Shown piece by piece: positions 357 through 16,586 of a stretch of DNA of 64,000 bases. This DNA is from Mumia sp. ZJ1417 (lineage in GTDB: Bacteria > Actinomycetota > Actinomycetes > Propionibacteriales > Nocardioidaceae). Within the stretch, counting starts at the first letter, position 1. The number at the start of each line of letters is the position of its first letter. Under the pieces are notes generated by a model. That model saw nothing but the letters and a program-made list of their open reading frames with translations. It did no database searches and was not told the DNA's origin. A program made the position numbers and the translations under genes. The DNA lies in the NCBI RefSeq assembly GCF_014127285.1, contig NZ_CP059901.1, forward strand, positions 248,001-312,000. Reading direction: 5' to 3'.

Positions 357-1271
357 TCATTTCTGGCCATCGGGCGGACCGATGCGGGCAATGTCGGAGA
401 CCGGGTAGCCGAGGTGGGCCAGCTTGTCGGGGTTAATGATCGACCGGACCGTCTGGATTGTGCCTTCATGGATGTCCAGGGCGAGGACATTGATGAGATG
501 GTCGTCGGCGTCGAAGGCGAGAAGGCCGGGCTGACCGTTCACGTGGGCGGCCTCCAGGCGCGCCCCCAGCGAGGCGTAGCGCTTGAAGAACCCGATAAGT
601 AGACGTGCCACTCGCTCATTTCCGAACACTGGTTCGGCCACAGCTCGGGCCTTCCCACCGCCGTCGCCCTGGAACACGGCGTCGGCGGCGAGAAGTTCCA
701 CCAAGGCACCGACCTGGCCGTCCTCGGCCGCGGCCTTGAACCTCGTTGTCAACAGCTCCCGTTCCTGTGAGGAGGCCTCGAAGCGGGGGCGGCCCTCGCT
801 GATCCGGGTCCGGGCGCGCGAGAACACCTGCCGACAGTTCCCTTCGCTCTTGTTGACGATCTTGGCTATCTCGTCGTAGGGGTACACGAAAACCTCGCGG
901 AGCAGGAACACAGCGCGCTCGATCGGACTGAGCCTCTCGAGGAGGACGAGAAACGACAGGGACAGTGAGTCCGACATGGCGGCATGCTCCGAAGGGTCGG
1001 GGTCGGTCAGCACCGGCTCAGGAAGCCAAGTCCCCACGTAGGACTCGCGCCGGACCCGTGCGGAGCGGAGGTGGTCGATTGCGAGCCGGGTTGTGATCGT
1101 GGTCAGGAACGCCGGCTTGGACTCCACAACAGTGCCGGCCGCGAAGGCTCGGAGCAGGCGCTCGTGGGCTTCTTGGACCAGGTCTTCTGCATCGCTGGCG
1201 CTCCCTGTCATCCGGTAGGCGATCGAGAACAGCTGACGCGAAATGTTGTCGGTTTCGGGCTCATCATTCAT
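357..1271 (-). CDS. ECF41-type sigma factor with fused C-terminal regulatory domain (SigJ-like)
   Basis: This 304-residue extracytoplasmic-function sigma factor directs RNA polymerase to promoters of the TGTCACA-N16-CGTC type. Sigma region 2 (about residues 10-75) and region 4 (about 108-155) are followed by a SnoaL-like extension that in this group replaces a separate anti-sigma factor. The three ECF41 signature motifs are visible: WLPEP at 82-86, DGGGK at 203-207 and NPDKL at 280-284. I chose ATG 1271 because GGAGGA at 1277-1282 sits 5 nt upstream; a longer frame from 1301 lacks this. The group is known to neighbour carboxymuconolactone decarboxylases, oxidoreductases or epimerases (COE genes), and the divergent neighbour is an oxidoreductase. 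Its own promoter motif at 1294-1320 suggests autoregulation. Confidence 0.93.
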   Translation of the reverse strand: MNDEPETDNISRQLFSIAYRMTGSASDAEDLVQEAHERLLRAFAAGTVVESKPAFLTTITTRLAIDHLRSARVRRESYVGTWLPEPVLTDPDPSEHAAMSDSLSLSFLVLLERLSPIERAVFLLREVFVYPYDEIAKIVNKSEGNCRQVFSRARTRISEGRPRFEASSQERELLTTRFKAAAEDGQVGALVELLAADAVFQGDGGGKARAVAEPVFGNERVARLLIGFFKRYASLGARLEAAHVNGQPGLLAFDADDHLINVLALDIHEGTIQTVRSIINPDKLAHLGYPVSDIARIGPPDGQK

Positions 1272-1293
1272 CTGCGTCCTCCATACCGCTCCT

Positions 1294-1320
1294 GACGACA
1301 CAGGAGCGCTTCGTGTGACA
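1294..1320 (-). promoter_or_regulatory. ECF41-type promoter driving the sigma factor gene itself
   Basis: On the minus strand TGTCACA (1320-1314) is followed after exactly 16 nt by CGTC (1297-1294). This is the ECF41 promoter pattern as I recall it from the literature. The predicted transcript would start near 1287 and carry the GGAGGA ribosome site before ATG 1271. It points to positive autoregulation. Confidence 0.75.
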
Positions 1321-1365
1321 AGTGGTGCTGGATCGAGGCCCGGATGCGGCTACTCACGGCCGAAG

Positions 1366-1392
1366 TGTCACACCTGCCGCAGGTGTCTCGTC
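1366..1392 (+). promoter_or_regulatory. ECF41-type promoter driving the FAD oxidoreductase gene
   Basis: TGTCACA at 1366-1372 and CGTC at 1389-1392 are separated by exactly 16 nt. The element faces the oxidoreductase gene, with its ATG 37 nt after the -10 element. The second ECF41 locus at 15589-15615 has the same extended form, TGTCACAC-N10-TGTCTCGTC. Confidence 0.8.
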
Positions 1393-1428: not shown

Positions 1429-2625
1429 ATGACGAACAAGGAAACGCACCACAAGACCGTGGTCATCGGTGGTGGCTACACAGGGATCATGGCAGCCATC
1501 CGGGTCGCGCGCCGGAGCCGGGCGATCGGCGGACGAGTGACGTTGGTCAACCCCTCGAGCCGATTCAACGAACGCCTGCGCATGCACCAGCAGGCGACGC
1601 ACCAAGAGATGGAATACCTCGCGATCCCAGATCTCGTGCAGGGACTGGACATTGAGTTCGTGGAAGGGACCGCGACCGACCTGGACGCTGAGCGACAGGA
1701 GCTGGCCGTAGCCACCGAACAGGGCGAAACCACCCTTCACTACGACACCCTCATCTACGCCATCGGCAGCGCGACCCCCACGAACCACGTGCCCGGTGCC
1801 GACGTGCACTCCTACACCCTGAACTCGCCGTCCTCGGCGAACAAGCTGGCCAGCCGACTCACGGAGGTCGCCGACGGCGGCACCGCGGTGGTGTGTGGCA
1901 ACGGCCTGACTGGTGTCGAGGCGGCCACCGAGATCGCCGAGTCCTTCCCGTCGGTACGGGTCGTCCTCCTGGGGCGTGACGAGCCGGCGCCACTGATGAA
2001 CGCGAAAGCCAGGAGCTATCTGCTCGGCGTGCTCGAGCGGCTGGGCATCGAGAGCCGGACCGGCGTCGAGATCACCAAGGTCCTGCCCGACGCGGTCGTG
2101 CTGGCCGGCGGAGAGCTTGTCGCCTCCGATGCCACGCTCTGGACCACGGGGTTCTGGGCTTCGCCCTTGGCCGCGGACGCCGGCCTCACCGTTGATCCCC
2201 AGCGGCGGATCGTCGTGGACCCCGAGCTTCGGTCGGTCTCACACCCATCCATCTTCGCCATCGGTGATGCTGCGGCGATCCAGCAACCCTGGGGAGTCAT
2301 TCACGGGACCTGCCAGAGCGGCATGCCATCGGGCGCACACGCGGCCGACAACATCGGGCGGATCCTGCGCGGCAAGCGACCGAAGCCCTTCCGATTCGCG
2401 TATATCCACCAACCCGTGAGCCTCGGCCGGAATGACGCCGTCGTGCAGTTCACCAAGATCGACGACTCTCCGAGCCGCTGGTATCTCACCGGCAAGTCCG
2501 CCGTCCGCTACAAGGAGGCCGTGACCGGTAGCCCTTCGACCACCTACGGACTGTCGCGCCGACTCGCTATCCCGATGGCACTCCTGGCGCGACGGGGCCC
2601 TCGGAAGGCACGCCGGGACCGTTGA
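1429..2625 (+). CDS. FAD-dependent NAD(P)H oxidoreductase (type II NADH dehydrogenase-like)
   Basis: This 398-residue pyridine-nucleotide-disulfide-type flavoprotein has an N-terminal FAD-binding motif VVIGGGYTG (residues 11-19), a second dinucleotide motif VVCGNGLTGVE in the middle, and the second FAD contact IFAIGDAAA. It resembles NDH-2 and AIF-like reductases; the electron acceptor cannot be told from sequence. I chose ATG 1429 because AAAGGA at 1415-1420 lies 8 nt upstream; in-frame ATGs at 1393 and 1420 are alternatives. It is the target gene of the divergent ECF41 sigma factor, whose promoter motif lies at 1366-1392. ECF41 partner oxidoreductases are a known association, but their physiological substrate is unknown. 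Confidence 0.88.
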   Translation: MTNKETHHKTVVIGGGYTGIMAAIRVARRSRAIGGRVTLVNPSSRFNERLRMHQQATHQEMEYLAIPDLVQGLDIEFVEGTATDLDAERQELAVATEQGETTLHYDTLIYAIGSATPTNHVPGADVHSYTLNSPSSANKLASRLTEVADGGTAVVCGNGLTGVEAATEIAESFPSVRVVLLGRDEPAPLMNAKARSYLLGVLERLGIESRTGVEITKVLPDAVVLAGGELVASDATLWTTGFWASPLAADAGLTVDPQRRIVVDPELRSVSHPSIFAIGDAAAIQQPWGVIHGTCQSGMPSGAHAADNIGRILRGKRPKPFRFAYIHQPVSLGRNDAVVQFTKIDDSPSRWYLTGKSAVRYKEAVTGSPSTTYGLSRRLAIPMALLARRGPRKARRDR

Positions 2626-2898: not shown

Positions 2899-3795
2899 TC
2901 ATTGGCGAGAAGAGAGGCGAGTGAGCTCGTCTGCGGTGAGGCGGAGCCCGGCTGCCGCGACGTTCTCCGTGAGGTGGTCCGGATTGCTCGTCCCGGGGAT
3001 GGCCAGCACGTGGGCCCCTTGTTGGAGCGTCCAGGCGAGCCGGACCTGCGCGGGCGAGGCACCGTGCGCTGCCGCGATCGTGAGCGTCTCGTCGTCCTCG
3101 GTGGAGGCGGATCGGCCGCGCTCCGCGCCGCCGCCGGCGACAGCGAAGAACGGTACAAAGGCGATGCCATGCTCGCCGCAGGTCGAGAGGAGGTCGTGCG
3201 CCTCGTCCGATGCCCCGATGGCGAACCGGTTCTGCACGCAAACCACAGGCGTGACCGCCCTTGCCTCGTCTAGGTGCGTGCGCTCGACCGCGGAGATGCC
3301 GATGTGTCGGACCAGTCCAGCGTCGCGCAGCTCAGCGAGCGCTCCGACATGCTCACTGATCGACTTCAGGGTCGGCATCCTGCGGAAGTTCACCAGGTCG
3401 AGGTGGTCGCGACCGAGCTGGCGAAGGTTCTCCTCGACCTGGCCGCGGAGCTGGTCGGGGCGGGCAGGGGGAAGCCATGCGCCGGACACGTCCCTTCCGG
3501 GGCCGACCTTGGTGGCGATGACGAGGTCGTCCGGGTACGGCGCGAGCGCGGAGTTGATCAGCTCGTTCGCCGAGCGCAGCGGGGAGAAGTAGAACGCGGC
3601 CGTGTCGATGTGGTTGACGCCGAGGTCGAGCGCACGTCGGAGCACCTCGACGGACCGGTCGCGATCACTTGCCACTCCGAGGTCGAAAGCGGCGCTGCCG
3701 GTCAGCCGCATCGCGCCGAACCCGAGCCGGTTCACCGTCAGGTCGCCCAGCTGCCAGGCGCCCGCGGAGTCCGCGGAGATTCTCGTTTCGGTCAT
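2899..3795 (-). CDS. aldo/keto reductase
   Basis: This 298-residue TIM-barrel NADPH-dependent aldo/keto reductase carries the catalytic Asp and Tyr in DTAAFY (D64, Y69) and the Lys in IATKVG (K96). The histidine normally found in the fourth catalytic position is not seen: the equivalent stretch reads DLVNFRRM (about 134-140), as in some actinobacterial AKR subfamilies. The substrate is unknown. No clear Shine-Dalgarno precedes ATG 3795, so the message may be leaderless. The 273 nt between the FAD oxidoreductase and this gene's stop hold no gene I can recognise. Confidence 0.88.
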   Translation of the reverse strand: MTETRISADSAGAWQLGDLTVNRLGFGAMRLTGSAAFDLGVASDRDRSVEVLRRALDLGVNHIDTAAFYFSPLRSANELINSALAPYPDDLVIATKVGPGRDVSGAWLPPARPDQLRGQVEENLRQLGRDHLDLVNFRRMPTLKSISEHVGALAELRDAGLVRHIGISAVERTHLDEARAVTPVVCVQNRFAIGASDEAHDLLSTCGEHGIAFVPFFAVAGGGAERGRSASTEDDETLTIAAAHGASPAQVRLAWTLQQGAHVLAIPGTSNPDHLTENVAAAGLRLTADELTRLSSRQ

Positions 3796-14636: not shown

Positions 14637-15563
14637 TCAGGTCCCGCCCCCCATCAGACCGTAGAGGTCGCCGACCGGGCCGAGATGGCGCAGCTTCTCC
14701 GGGTTGAGCACATTGTGCAGCCGTGCGATCTGGCCGTCGACGACGTCGATGGTCATGAGGGAGAGCAGTGCGCCGTCGGCAGCACGCGCCCGCAGGGCCG
14801 GCTCGCCGTTCGCGACGACCTGGTCGATCAGCACGCCGAATCGTGCGCCCTGGCGCACCAGACCGGCGAGGAACCGCGCGACCTGGACCGTGCCCACCAT
14901 CGGCCGCTGGATCGCCGGAGCGCGTCCGCCGCCGTCGCCGACGAACATCACGTCCTCGGCGAGCAGTCGCTCCAGGCCGGCGACGTCACCCCTGGAGACG
15001 GCCGCGACGAACTGGGCCGCCAGACGGTCGCGTTGCTCCGGCGACGCGTCGAACCGCGGTCGGCCGTCGTCGATCCGCTTCCTTGCCCGGGCGAGGATCT
15101 GCCGGCAATTCGCCTCCGACTTATCGACCACCACCGCGATGTCGGCGTAGTCGTAGGCGAGGGCCTCGCGCAGGACGAAGACCGCACGCTCCACCGGCGT
15201 CAAGGACTCGAGCAGCATGAGGAACGCGGTGGAGACGGTCGCGTCGAGCTCGACCTGATGCGCGGGATCGGCGTCGGAGGAGGCGACGAGCGGCTCGGGC
15301 AGCCACGGACCGACGTACTGCTCGCGTCGGACGCGGGCAGAGCGCAGCGTGTCGATCGCGAGCCGCGTGGTGACCGTGGTCGCGTAGGCCTCGGGGTTGT
15401 CGACCGACAGCCCCTCGGGGCCGGCGCGGTGCATCCGAAGGAACGCCTCCTGCACGACATCCTCGGCCTCGGCCACGCTGCCGAGCATCCGGTAGGCGAT
15501 CGAGAACATGAGGGGGCGGAGATCGTCGTGCACGTCCGCCAGACTCGCCACGGCCCGATCCAA
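14637..15563 (-). CDS. second ECF41-type sigma factor (SigJ-like)
   Basis: A 308-residue ECF sigma factor of the same class as the gene at 357-1271. It has sigma 2 (about 15-80), WLPEP at 87-91, sigma 4 (about 115-165), then a SnoaL-like extension with DGGGR at 210-214 and NPEKL at 287-291. A TTG at 15563 is the longest start; GTG 15551 is an alternative, and neither has a strong ribosome site. The divergent gene is an NAD-dependent epimerase, the E of the COE partners known for ECF41. Unlike the first locus, I find no promoter motif facing the sigma gene, so autoregulation is not supported here. Confidence 0.92.
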   Translation of the reverse strand: MDRAVASLADVHDDLRPLMFSIAYRMLGSVAEAEDVVQEAFLRMHRAGPEGLSVDNPEAYATTVTTRLAIDTLRSARVRREQYVGPWLPEPLVASSDADPAHQVELDATVSTAFLMLLESLTPVERAVFVLREALAYDYADIAVVVDKSEANCRQILARARKRIDDGRPRFDASPEQRDRLAAQFVAAVSRGDVAGLERLLAEDVMFVGDGGGRAPAIQRPMVGTVQVARFLAGLVRQGARFGVLIDQVVANGEPALRARAADGALLSLMTIDVVDGQIARLHNVLNPEKLRHLGPVGDLYGLMGGGT

Positions 15564-15588: not shown

Positions 15589-15615
15589 TGTCACACGGAC
15601 GGCGGCTGTCTCGTC
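15589..15615 (+). promoter_or_regulatory. ECF41-type promoter driving the epimerase gene
   Basis: TGTCACA at 15589-15595 and CGTC at 15612-15615 are separated by exactly 16 nt. The motif also shares the extra TGTCT before CGTC with the element at 1366-1392. The epimerase ATG lies 26 nt downstream. Confidence 0.8.
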
Positions 15616-15641: not shown

Positions 15642-16586
15642 ATGCGTGTCTTCATCGCAGGAGCCAGCGGAGCGCTCGGCAATCGGCTGATCCCGCTGCT
15701 GGTGCAGGACGGCCACGAGGTGACCGGAACGACCAGGAATCAGGAGGGCCTCGCGAGGGTCCAGGAGGTCGGTGCCGTCGGTGCCGTCATGGACCCGCTC
15801 GATGCCGACAGCGTGCGGTCCGCCGTGGTCGGCGCCCGTCCCGACGTCGTGGTGCACGAGCTCACCGCGCTCGGGGCCATGAGCGGCAACCCGAAGCACT
15901 TCGACCGGGACTTCGCCGTCACCAACCGGCTGCGGACGGAGGCGACCGATCACCTCCTGGCGGCGGCTCAGCAGTGCGGTGCCCGGCGGTTCGTCGCCCA
16001 GAGCTACACAGGCTGGCCGAATGAGCGTCGCGGGTCGTGGGTCAAGTCAGAGGAGGATCCGCTCGCCGCCGACCCGGGCAAGGAGGCGCGCGAGTCGTTG
16101 GCGGCGATCCGTCACCTCGAGCACGCCGTGACCACGACGCCGGGCATCGACGGTCTCGTCCTGCGGTACGGCAACTTCTACGGACCCGGCAACGCCCTCT
16201 CGCGCGGCGGCATGATGGCCGAGATGATTCGGCGCGGGCGGATGCCGGTCGTCGGTGGTGGTGCCGGGGTGTGGTCGTTCCTTCACATCGACGATGCGGC
16301 ATCGGCGACGGCGGCGGCAGTCGACGGGGGTGCGCCTGGTGTCTACAACGTCGTCGACGACGATCCCGCGCCGATCGCGCAGTGGCTGCCGTACCTGGCC
16401 GAGCAGCTCGGCGGGCGCAAGCCGATGCGGCTCCCCGCATGGCTGGGACGTCCACTGATCGGCGAGCTCGGCATCGCGATGATGACCACGATCCGCGGGT
16501 CGTCGAACGCGAAGGCCGAGCGCGAGCTGGGCTGGAAGCCCCGGTACGCGAGCTGGCGGGAAGGTTTCCGTACCGGGCTCGGGTGA
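15642..16586 (+). CDS. NAD-dependent epimerase/dehydratase family protein (ECF41 target)
   Basis: A 314-residue extended short-chain dehydrogenase with the N-terminal cofactor motif GASGALG (7-13) and the downstream VLRYGNFYGPG stretch typical of sugar-nucleotide epimerases. A canonical YxxxK is not obvious: the expected region reads SYTGWPNERR, so activity may be atypical. AGGAG just upstream of ATG 15642 is a strong ribosome site. The gene is divergent from the second ECF41 sigma gene and sits behind a clear ECF41 promoter, so it is very likely its target. The substrate is unknown. Confidence 0.87.
   Translation: MRVFIAGASGALGNRLIPLLVQDGHEVTGTTRNQEGLARVQEVGAVGAVMDPLDADSVRSAVVGARPDVVVHELTALGAMSGNPKHFDRDFAVTNRLRTEATDHLLAAAQQCGARRFVAQSYTGWPNERRGSWVKSEEDPLAADPGKEARESLAAIRHLEHAVTTTPGIDGLVLRYGNFYGPGNALSRGGMMAEMIRRGRMPVVGGGAGVWSFLHIDDAASATAAAVDGGAPGVYNVVDDDPAPIAQWLPYLAEQLGGRKPMRLPAWLGRPLIGELGIAMMTTIRGSSNAKAERELGWKPRYASWREGFRTGLG

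Follow-up and report, generated by a model that had tools for sequence, protein, structure and literature searches.

The locus at positions 1294-1392 of the window—the whole stretch of 64,000 nucleotides of Mumia sp. ZJ1417 that was analysed—reads as an ECF41 (SigJ-type) module of the layout <ECF< >COE>, predicted from its sequence, with a probability of about 0.87, to carry autoregulated back-to-back promoters. It is a clean divergent addition, with the motif on both sides, to a known family; the module itself is ordinary, and what matters more is the spacing rule proposed below for such promoter pairs. Concerning the two ECF41-type promoters, the one facing the sigma factor gene occupies positions 1294-1320 on the minus strand (-35 box TGTCACA at 1314-1320, -10 box CGTC at 1294-1297), and the one facing the oxidoreductase gene occupies 1366-1392 on the plus strand (TGTCACA at 1366-1372, CGTC at 1389-1392). 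Both are exact with a spacer of N16, which confirms, at both sets of coordinates, the claim of the preliminary description that TGTCACA-N16-CGTC occurs without mismatch in both orientations between the divergent genes. The back-to-back -35 boxes are separated by 45 bp (1321-1365), a distance belonging to the 42-47 class of spacings, and the leaders 3' of both -10 boxes are suitable and contain ribosome sites. The origin of such a divergent motif pair by chance is negligible, none having appeared in 100 shuffles. A 17-bp palindrome at about 1370-1386, in the spacer of the oxidoreductase promoter, was considered as an operator and dropped, because in the alignment it is not conserved in the relative L052.

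The sigma factor gene (357-1271, minus strand; 304 aa, ATG at 1271), assigned to the ECF41/SigJ type by domain, family and structure matches, is preceded by a Shine-Dalgarno-like GGAGG (1278-1282, minus strand) read from its leader. Its product contains the Pfam domains Sigma70_r2 (residues 12-72) and Sigma70_r4_2 (residues 106-156), with no sigma3, and scores 339.1 bits against TIGR02957 (cut-off 323.25) and 316.7 bits against NF007214/SigJ (cut-off 271); both of these are SigJ-type models, no ECF41-named model being present among the matches listed. The likeness to SigJ of Mycobacterium tuberculosis (PDB 5xe7) extends over residues 7-290 of 304 (E 2e-47) and includes the C-terminal domain, the extension of about 145 aa that follows sigma4 (about 100 aa or more being expected of ECF41) being aligned with 5xe7 up to residue 290. 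Pfam assigns no SnoaL_2 domain to this protein but finds one in the second sigma factor, described below. The three motifs WLPEP, DGGGK and NPDKL named by the preliminary description can all be read in the protein, the first—in the form TWLPEPV—in the linker between sigma2 and sigma4; the preliminary description takes them for the signature of ECF41. WLPEP is named by Wecke et al. (2012; PMC3426412); DGGGK and NPDKL have no matches in the text of that paper. Among 76 sigma proteins encoded at homologous promoter pairs, the exact WLPEP is found in 35, DGGG in 57, DGGG[KR] in 32 and NP[DE]KL in 51. In the annotated DNA to the right of the sigma factor gene lie the divergent oxidoreductase gene and then an aldo/keto reductase gene (2899-3795, minus strand), which converges on the oxidoreductase gene and is without an exact motif nearby.

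The oxidoreductase gene (1429-2625, plus strand) encodes a 398-aa NDH-2/FSP1-like FAD-NAD(P)H oxidoreductase (Pyr_redox_2); AAAGGA is situated just upstream of its ATG at 1429, an alternative in-frame ATG at 1420 being possible. The protein is matched over residues 10 to about 340 by the NDH-2-like 5kmq, 4nwz and YjlD (9pxk), FSP1 being more distant, and it reached no NCBIfam cut-off among the families listed. A Pyr_redox_2 partner belongs to the list of COE proteins given for ECF41 in the text of PMC3426412. A homologue of this enzyme with E 1e-60 or better is encoded in one of five other genomes of the genus, with 41% identity; an ECF41-type gene comes after it in the same direction, and both stand behind one exact promoter. 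Judged by these five genomes, the module is accessory and lacks conservation within the genus.

The motif, the <ECF< >COE> layout and the promoters on both sides were all published in 2012 (PMC3426412). The text of that study describes the ECF41 motif with a spacer of 16 +/- 1, the WLPEP linker, the C-terminal extension and COE partners including Pyr_redox (the 'oxidoreductase' class), and it reports that the motif promoter responds to the sigma factor in two organisms, the two ECF41 factors tested regulating only the adjoining gene or operon, with a single target transcript each. Its Table 4 gives 55 <ECF< >COE> loci, with the motif as PECF in 36 and as PCOE in 41, and autoregulation is therefore not universal in ECF41, since the motif precedes the sigma gene in 36 of these 55 divergent loci. 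The locus studied here shares with the modules described in that text the promoter, WLPEP, the extension, an oxidoreductase-type COE and the divergent layout, and nothing tested at it differs from them in kind. A review from 2022 (PMC8999054), in the part consulted, places SigJ in ECF41 and describes the SnoaL-like extension as inhibitory.

Judging from the published work on ECF41, the motif would be the promoter recognised by the sigma factor, which would be restrained by its own fused C-terminal SnoaL-like domain and not by an anti-sigma protein, a signal acting via the C-terminal extension. To our knowledge, there is no established signal for ECF41 factors. The steps proposed here are that the sigma factor would guide RNA polymerase to the two promoters, which are of the same type and stand back to back; both would fire, one yielding the NDH-2-like FAD oxidoreductase and the other more sigma factor, in a positive loop. 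The autoregulated two-gene circuit that had been predicted earlier is thus supported by what the sequence establishes—which families the proteins belong to, that both promoters are exact, how far apart they lie and that exact motifs in this genome are restricted to ECF41 loci—together with the published layout, the loop being its predicted element.

Another sigma gene of the ECF41/SigJ type, with 50% identity to the first one, is found at 14637-15563 (minus strand; start codon uncertain), and its partner, recognised by a domain match, is an NAD-dependent epimerase/SDR gene at 15642-16586 (plus strand). The motif search placed a third exact ECF41-type promoter at 15589-15615 (plus strand), facing the epimerase gene; on the side facing the sigma gene, spacers of 15-18 and up to 3 mismatches being allowed, only candidates with 2-3 mismatches were seen. 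Autoregulation by the motif is predicted for the first module, because in the second one it is the epimerase gene alone that has an exact motif before it. The three exact copies of the motif in the 64-kb window compare with 0.08 expected, none of 100 shuffles having given three. A search of the complete genome (4,190,080 bases in one contig), as suggested by the preliminary description, returned the same three copies and no others, a reversed-pattern control giving one. The base composition predicts about 1.1 exact matches genome-wide, so the count itself barely exceeds chance. All three are, however, located in the intergenic regions of the two ECF41-COE modules, and simple chance is ruled out for the motif by location (3/3 at ECF41 loci), not by number; the exact matches are thus confined to ECF41 loci, not frequent and unrelated to them.

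With up to one mismatch, 39 places are found (the three exact ones included) against 27 in the control, and one-mismatch matches are therefore mostly noise. Three of the 36 one-mismatch places were inspected for adjoining genes, all with TGTC as the -10 box. The first (L017; genome positions 2500084-2500110, plus strand) lies upstream of a CMD-ECF41 gene pair and the second (L025; 2892846-2892872, minus strand) upstream of a DoxX gene, and both sites are, from their sequence and position, likely ECF41 promoters; beside the third, at 2895619, none of the five gene types sought is present. Altogether, five ECF41-like proteins, including the one studied here, are encoded in the genome at a level of at least 40% identity to the latter over most of its length. 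At 4058047-4060682 (minus strand; L034, L037 and L048), an ECF41-like sigma gene lies near a second, more distantly related sigma gene, both on the same strand and without an exact motif.

It could be argued that only the oxidoreductase promoter works, the sigma gene being served by another (housekeeping) promoter with the motif before it as a leftover, so that there would be no loop. In favour of this, the sigma gene lacks the motif in many of the loci tabulated in PMC3426412 and lacks an exact one in the second module, and the spacers of the two promoters have little in common beyond the boxes. Against it, the sigma-facing motif is exact, stands at a normal distance from a good ribosome site and, as part of a divergent pair, could hardly have arisen by chance. 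Moreover, neighbouring sigma and oxidoreductase genes sharing a promoter pair of this kind occur in two other genomes of the family, the gaps being 46 and 44 bp; in the tree of sigma factors, one of the two loci, L052, is close to the sigma factor studied here and the other, L050, distant, and the sigma-facing motif is kept in the former, despite much divergence of the DNA between the promoters, as well as in the latter. A circuit with a single working promoter is accordingly regarded as very improbable. A different doubt concerns the independence of the module, as the five ECF41-like sigma factors might share one motif and form one network instead of separate circuits. Besides the number of these near-full-length proteins, the similar region-4 sequence of the sigma factors of both modules points this way, and so does the motif, which is common to the two modules and, with TGTC as the -10 box, to the CMD-ECF41 pair and the DoxX gene. 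On the other hand, the two ECF41 factors tested in the text of PMC3426412 act only on the neighbouring gene or operon, and the close association of the gene pair with the motif points to control that is mostly local. Such a network is possible, yet we consider it doubtful, and the autoregulated module remains the preferred reading, within which the second sigma factor, owing to its similar region 4 and the same motif, would be able to cross-talk. A genome with five ECF41-like factors allows the question of cross-talk to be asked directly.

The distance between the two promoters was compared across genomes by scanning the genome_contigs set for two exact motifs in back-to-back arrangement whose -35 boxes are 30-60 bp apart, which yielded 113 stretches against about 0.5 estimated by chance. 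Together with 3 pairs from the family search the set comprises 116 pairs, 112 of them distinct (L073, L096, L110 and L146 being exact copies); L100, L115 and L141, which have TGTCACA inside the gap, are absent from the later counts of periodicity, CRP-like sites and tree. The gap is 30-38 bp in 74 pairs, 42-47 bp in 37 and 53-60 bp in 5, with none of the 116 at 39-41 or 48-52 bp, i.e. the distribution is bimodal and the two main classes of spacing differ by about one helical turn. An ECF41-type gene directly flanks 87 of the 116 pairs; the other recognised partner genes are CMD, DoxX, NDH2-like and epimerase genes, many partners being unrecognised. In the family of the bacterium studied here, a scan of 294 genomes for gaps of 25-55 bp revealed pairs in three (45, 46 and 44 bp). 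Concerning gaps of 0-29 bp, 31 genomes out of 341 searched in the Actinomadura family contain the half-pattern (reversed-pattern control 0), and none of 249 in the Sphingomonas family does (control 0). In the Streptomyces family it is found in 6 of 249 genomes, with 7 matches, two of these representing one and the same full pair (gap 11 bp), matched once on each strand; the control gave 5, and the half-pattern there is hence hardly above chance. Full pairs with gaps below 30 bp cluster at 10-12 and 21-24 bp, others being at 4, 7, 17, 19 and 27-29 bp.

The DNA between the boxes contains a further regularity. A CRP-like site, defined as at least 7 of the 10 letters of TGTGA-N6-TCACA, is present in 47 of the 104 distinct pairs with gaps of 30-47 bp and missing from 57 (4.7 pairs on average in shuffles, 11 at most). 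In all 47, the centre of the site lies 16-18 bp away from whichever -35 box is nearer (against 0.8 in shuffles, with a maximum of 4), and the distance from the centre to the other box is 17-18 bp in 28 pairs and 27-29 bp in 19. From the taxonomic point of view, the site occurs in 47 of the 54 named Actinomycetota pairs with these gaps and in none of the 47 pairs from other named phyla. The consensus in the actinobacterial ECF41 promoter pairs, GTGACGTGGGTCAC, fits the GTG(N)6GNCAC consensus of Streptomyces Crp sites as quoted in PMC10033298 (citing Gao 2012). Two of the three pairs set aside do carry the CRP-like site (L100 at 17|18, L115 at 17|17), while L141 (Paraburkholderia) does not; since the sites of L100 and L115 contain TGTCACA, a -35 box and a CRP half-site can coincide. 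In 31 Pseudomonadota pairs with gaps of 30-38 bp, the A/T content peaks 13-15 bp from the nearer box, reaching 0.73-0.81 against 0.29 in the spacers. A/T tracts such as AAAATTTT were noticed in otherwise G+C-rich gaps of Pseudomonadota pairs, for example L058, L105, L145 and L165.

A half-site is likewise found upstream of ECF41 promoters, a search of 120 Actinomadura-family genomes for GTCACA 0-30 bp before the promoter having given 20 matches in 18 genomes (control 1), although this test depends partly on the pair set because of common loci such as L098/L259. The distance is 8-11 bp in 19 of the 20 matches and 21 bp in one; 18 of them score at least 7 as CRP-like sites and are centred 16-19 bp upstream, L253 and L254 being the ones that do not. 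As to the genes served, a recognised CMD gene follows 11 of the 20 matches, and a sigma gene one. Among the 18, L250 is not a CRP-like site but consists of tandem GTCACA at 18-bp steps, four copies in all, the last of which is the -35 box.

The pair in the window has no counterpart of the Streptomyces Crp sites: positions 1321-1365 lack a CRP-like site, the best score being 6/10 (at 30|15), a value reached by 27% of shuffles. With scores of 4 (L050) and 5 (L052), the two further pairs of the family also lack the site, the other motif-bearing promoters inspected in the genome do not exceed 6/10, and the half-site before an ECF41 promoter gave 2 matches in 197 genomes of the family, at 7 and 15 bp, without a peak at N=8-11. 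A Crp-family protein is encoded in the genome (PF13545 at 336821, 61.6 bits). A link to Crp does not explain this locus, because neither its own pair nor the two family pairs contain the CRP-like site; its phased gap may reflect a lost site, another regulator or direct phasing.

Based on the above results, a helical spacing rule is proposed, and we hold it, with moderate confidence, to be the better account of the pairs. The -35 boxes would lie about 31-36 or 43-46 bp apart, more rarely 10-12 or 21-24 bp, i.e. in steps of one DNA turn, because an upstream element lying on one fixed helical face would be used by both promoters in common. For the majority of Actinomycetota pairs, a CRP-family site is envisaged as this element, its centre 16-18 bp from one of the -35 boxes and 17-18 or 27-29 bp from the second; it would link the ECF41 genes, as well as their sigma factor, to cAMP/Crp. 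In Pseudomonadota, the A/T tract 13-15 bp from the -35 box—possibly a site for the alpha subunit—may replace it. The pair in the window, with its 45 bp, would have kept the phased spacing without a Crp-like site. Ushida and Aiba reportedly found in 1990 that CRP acts in a way sensitive to its helical phasing with the -35 region. If the proposal is true, a Crp-like site by ECF41 promoters in much of Actinomycetota would hint at when these genes are used (carbon/cAMP status), and two-way ECF promoters would become a testable case of one shared upstream element.

The classes of spacing could instead reflect inheritance within a few gene families, with no mechanical meaning. Many Streptomyces, Sphingomonas and Bradyrhizobium loci do have the same spacing, probably by descent, and on the tree of sigma factors no more than 3 changes are seen for the CRP-like site, which is located mostly in one clade. 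The class 30-38 or 42-47, however, changes at least 9 times on that tree—a quick one of 83 sigma factors, 68 of known class, with long branches and many weak forks—and two near-identical Paenibacillus control regions, with gaps of 44 and 33 bp, differ by an 11-bp indel. Descent was also addressed by collapsing 135 distinct full pairs with spacers of 15-17 by orthologous gene pair to 68 values, which are still periodic, with R 0.51 at the best period of 11.5 bp against a mean R of 0.16 in a jitter null, where 0 of 2000 runs were as high; the lineages come from our own gene calls at 35% identity and may be over-split, as some partner genes were missed. Yet the best-fitting period is 11-12 bp and not 10.5 bp, at which R is 0.43, and the 19 collapsed values below 30 bp alone show no significant period (p 0.20). 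Several gaps are moreover off phase, and of three Prauserella pairs near one another two have a gap of 34 bp and one, 24 bp longer, of 58 bp, which counts against the spacing rule. True off-phase pairs (4, 7, 17, 19, 27-29, 53 and 57-60 bp) were retained in the phase counts; half-pairs at 17-19 bp, considered as off-phase promoter pairs, mostly lack a second -10 box and were excluded. Weighing both sides, inheritance as the whole explanation seems to us rather unlikely, and the helical rule is preferred.

Two other causes of the spacing are not favoured as sole ones. Two polymerases side by side would not account for gaps of 10-12 bp, at which two holoenzymes would hardly fit, and a regulator at the exact dyad does not agree with the CRP-like site being off centre (about 16|28) at gaps of 43-45 bp, where it keeps its distance from one promoter and shifts by one turn from the other. 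A regularity in the distance between back-to-back ECF41 promoters is apparently unreported: the passages of PMC3426412 consulted mention neither that distance nor a CRP-like site, and in the passages of other literature consulted, most subscription papers being outside the search, neither a spacing rule nor a Crp site at ECF41 promoters was found.

It should also be mentioned that an inverted copy of the -35 box, 17-19 bp upstream of an ECF41 promoter and without a second -10 box, recurs as a conserved half-pair in the Actinomadura family (L190, L192-L194, L206, L212 and L232) and in the Streptomyces family (L234 and L237); at each of the seven loci from the Actinomadura family, the promoter is directed towards the sigma gene. 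Finally, in Streptomyces-type loci such as L053, L054, L056, L072, L087 and others, a divergent ECF41 pair is situated between the DoxX and CMD genes, with the sigma gene one place further, so that such a pair can drive two targets of which neither is the sigma gene.
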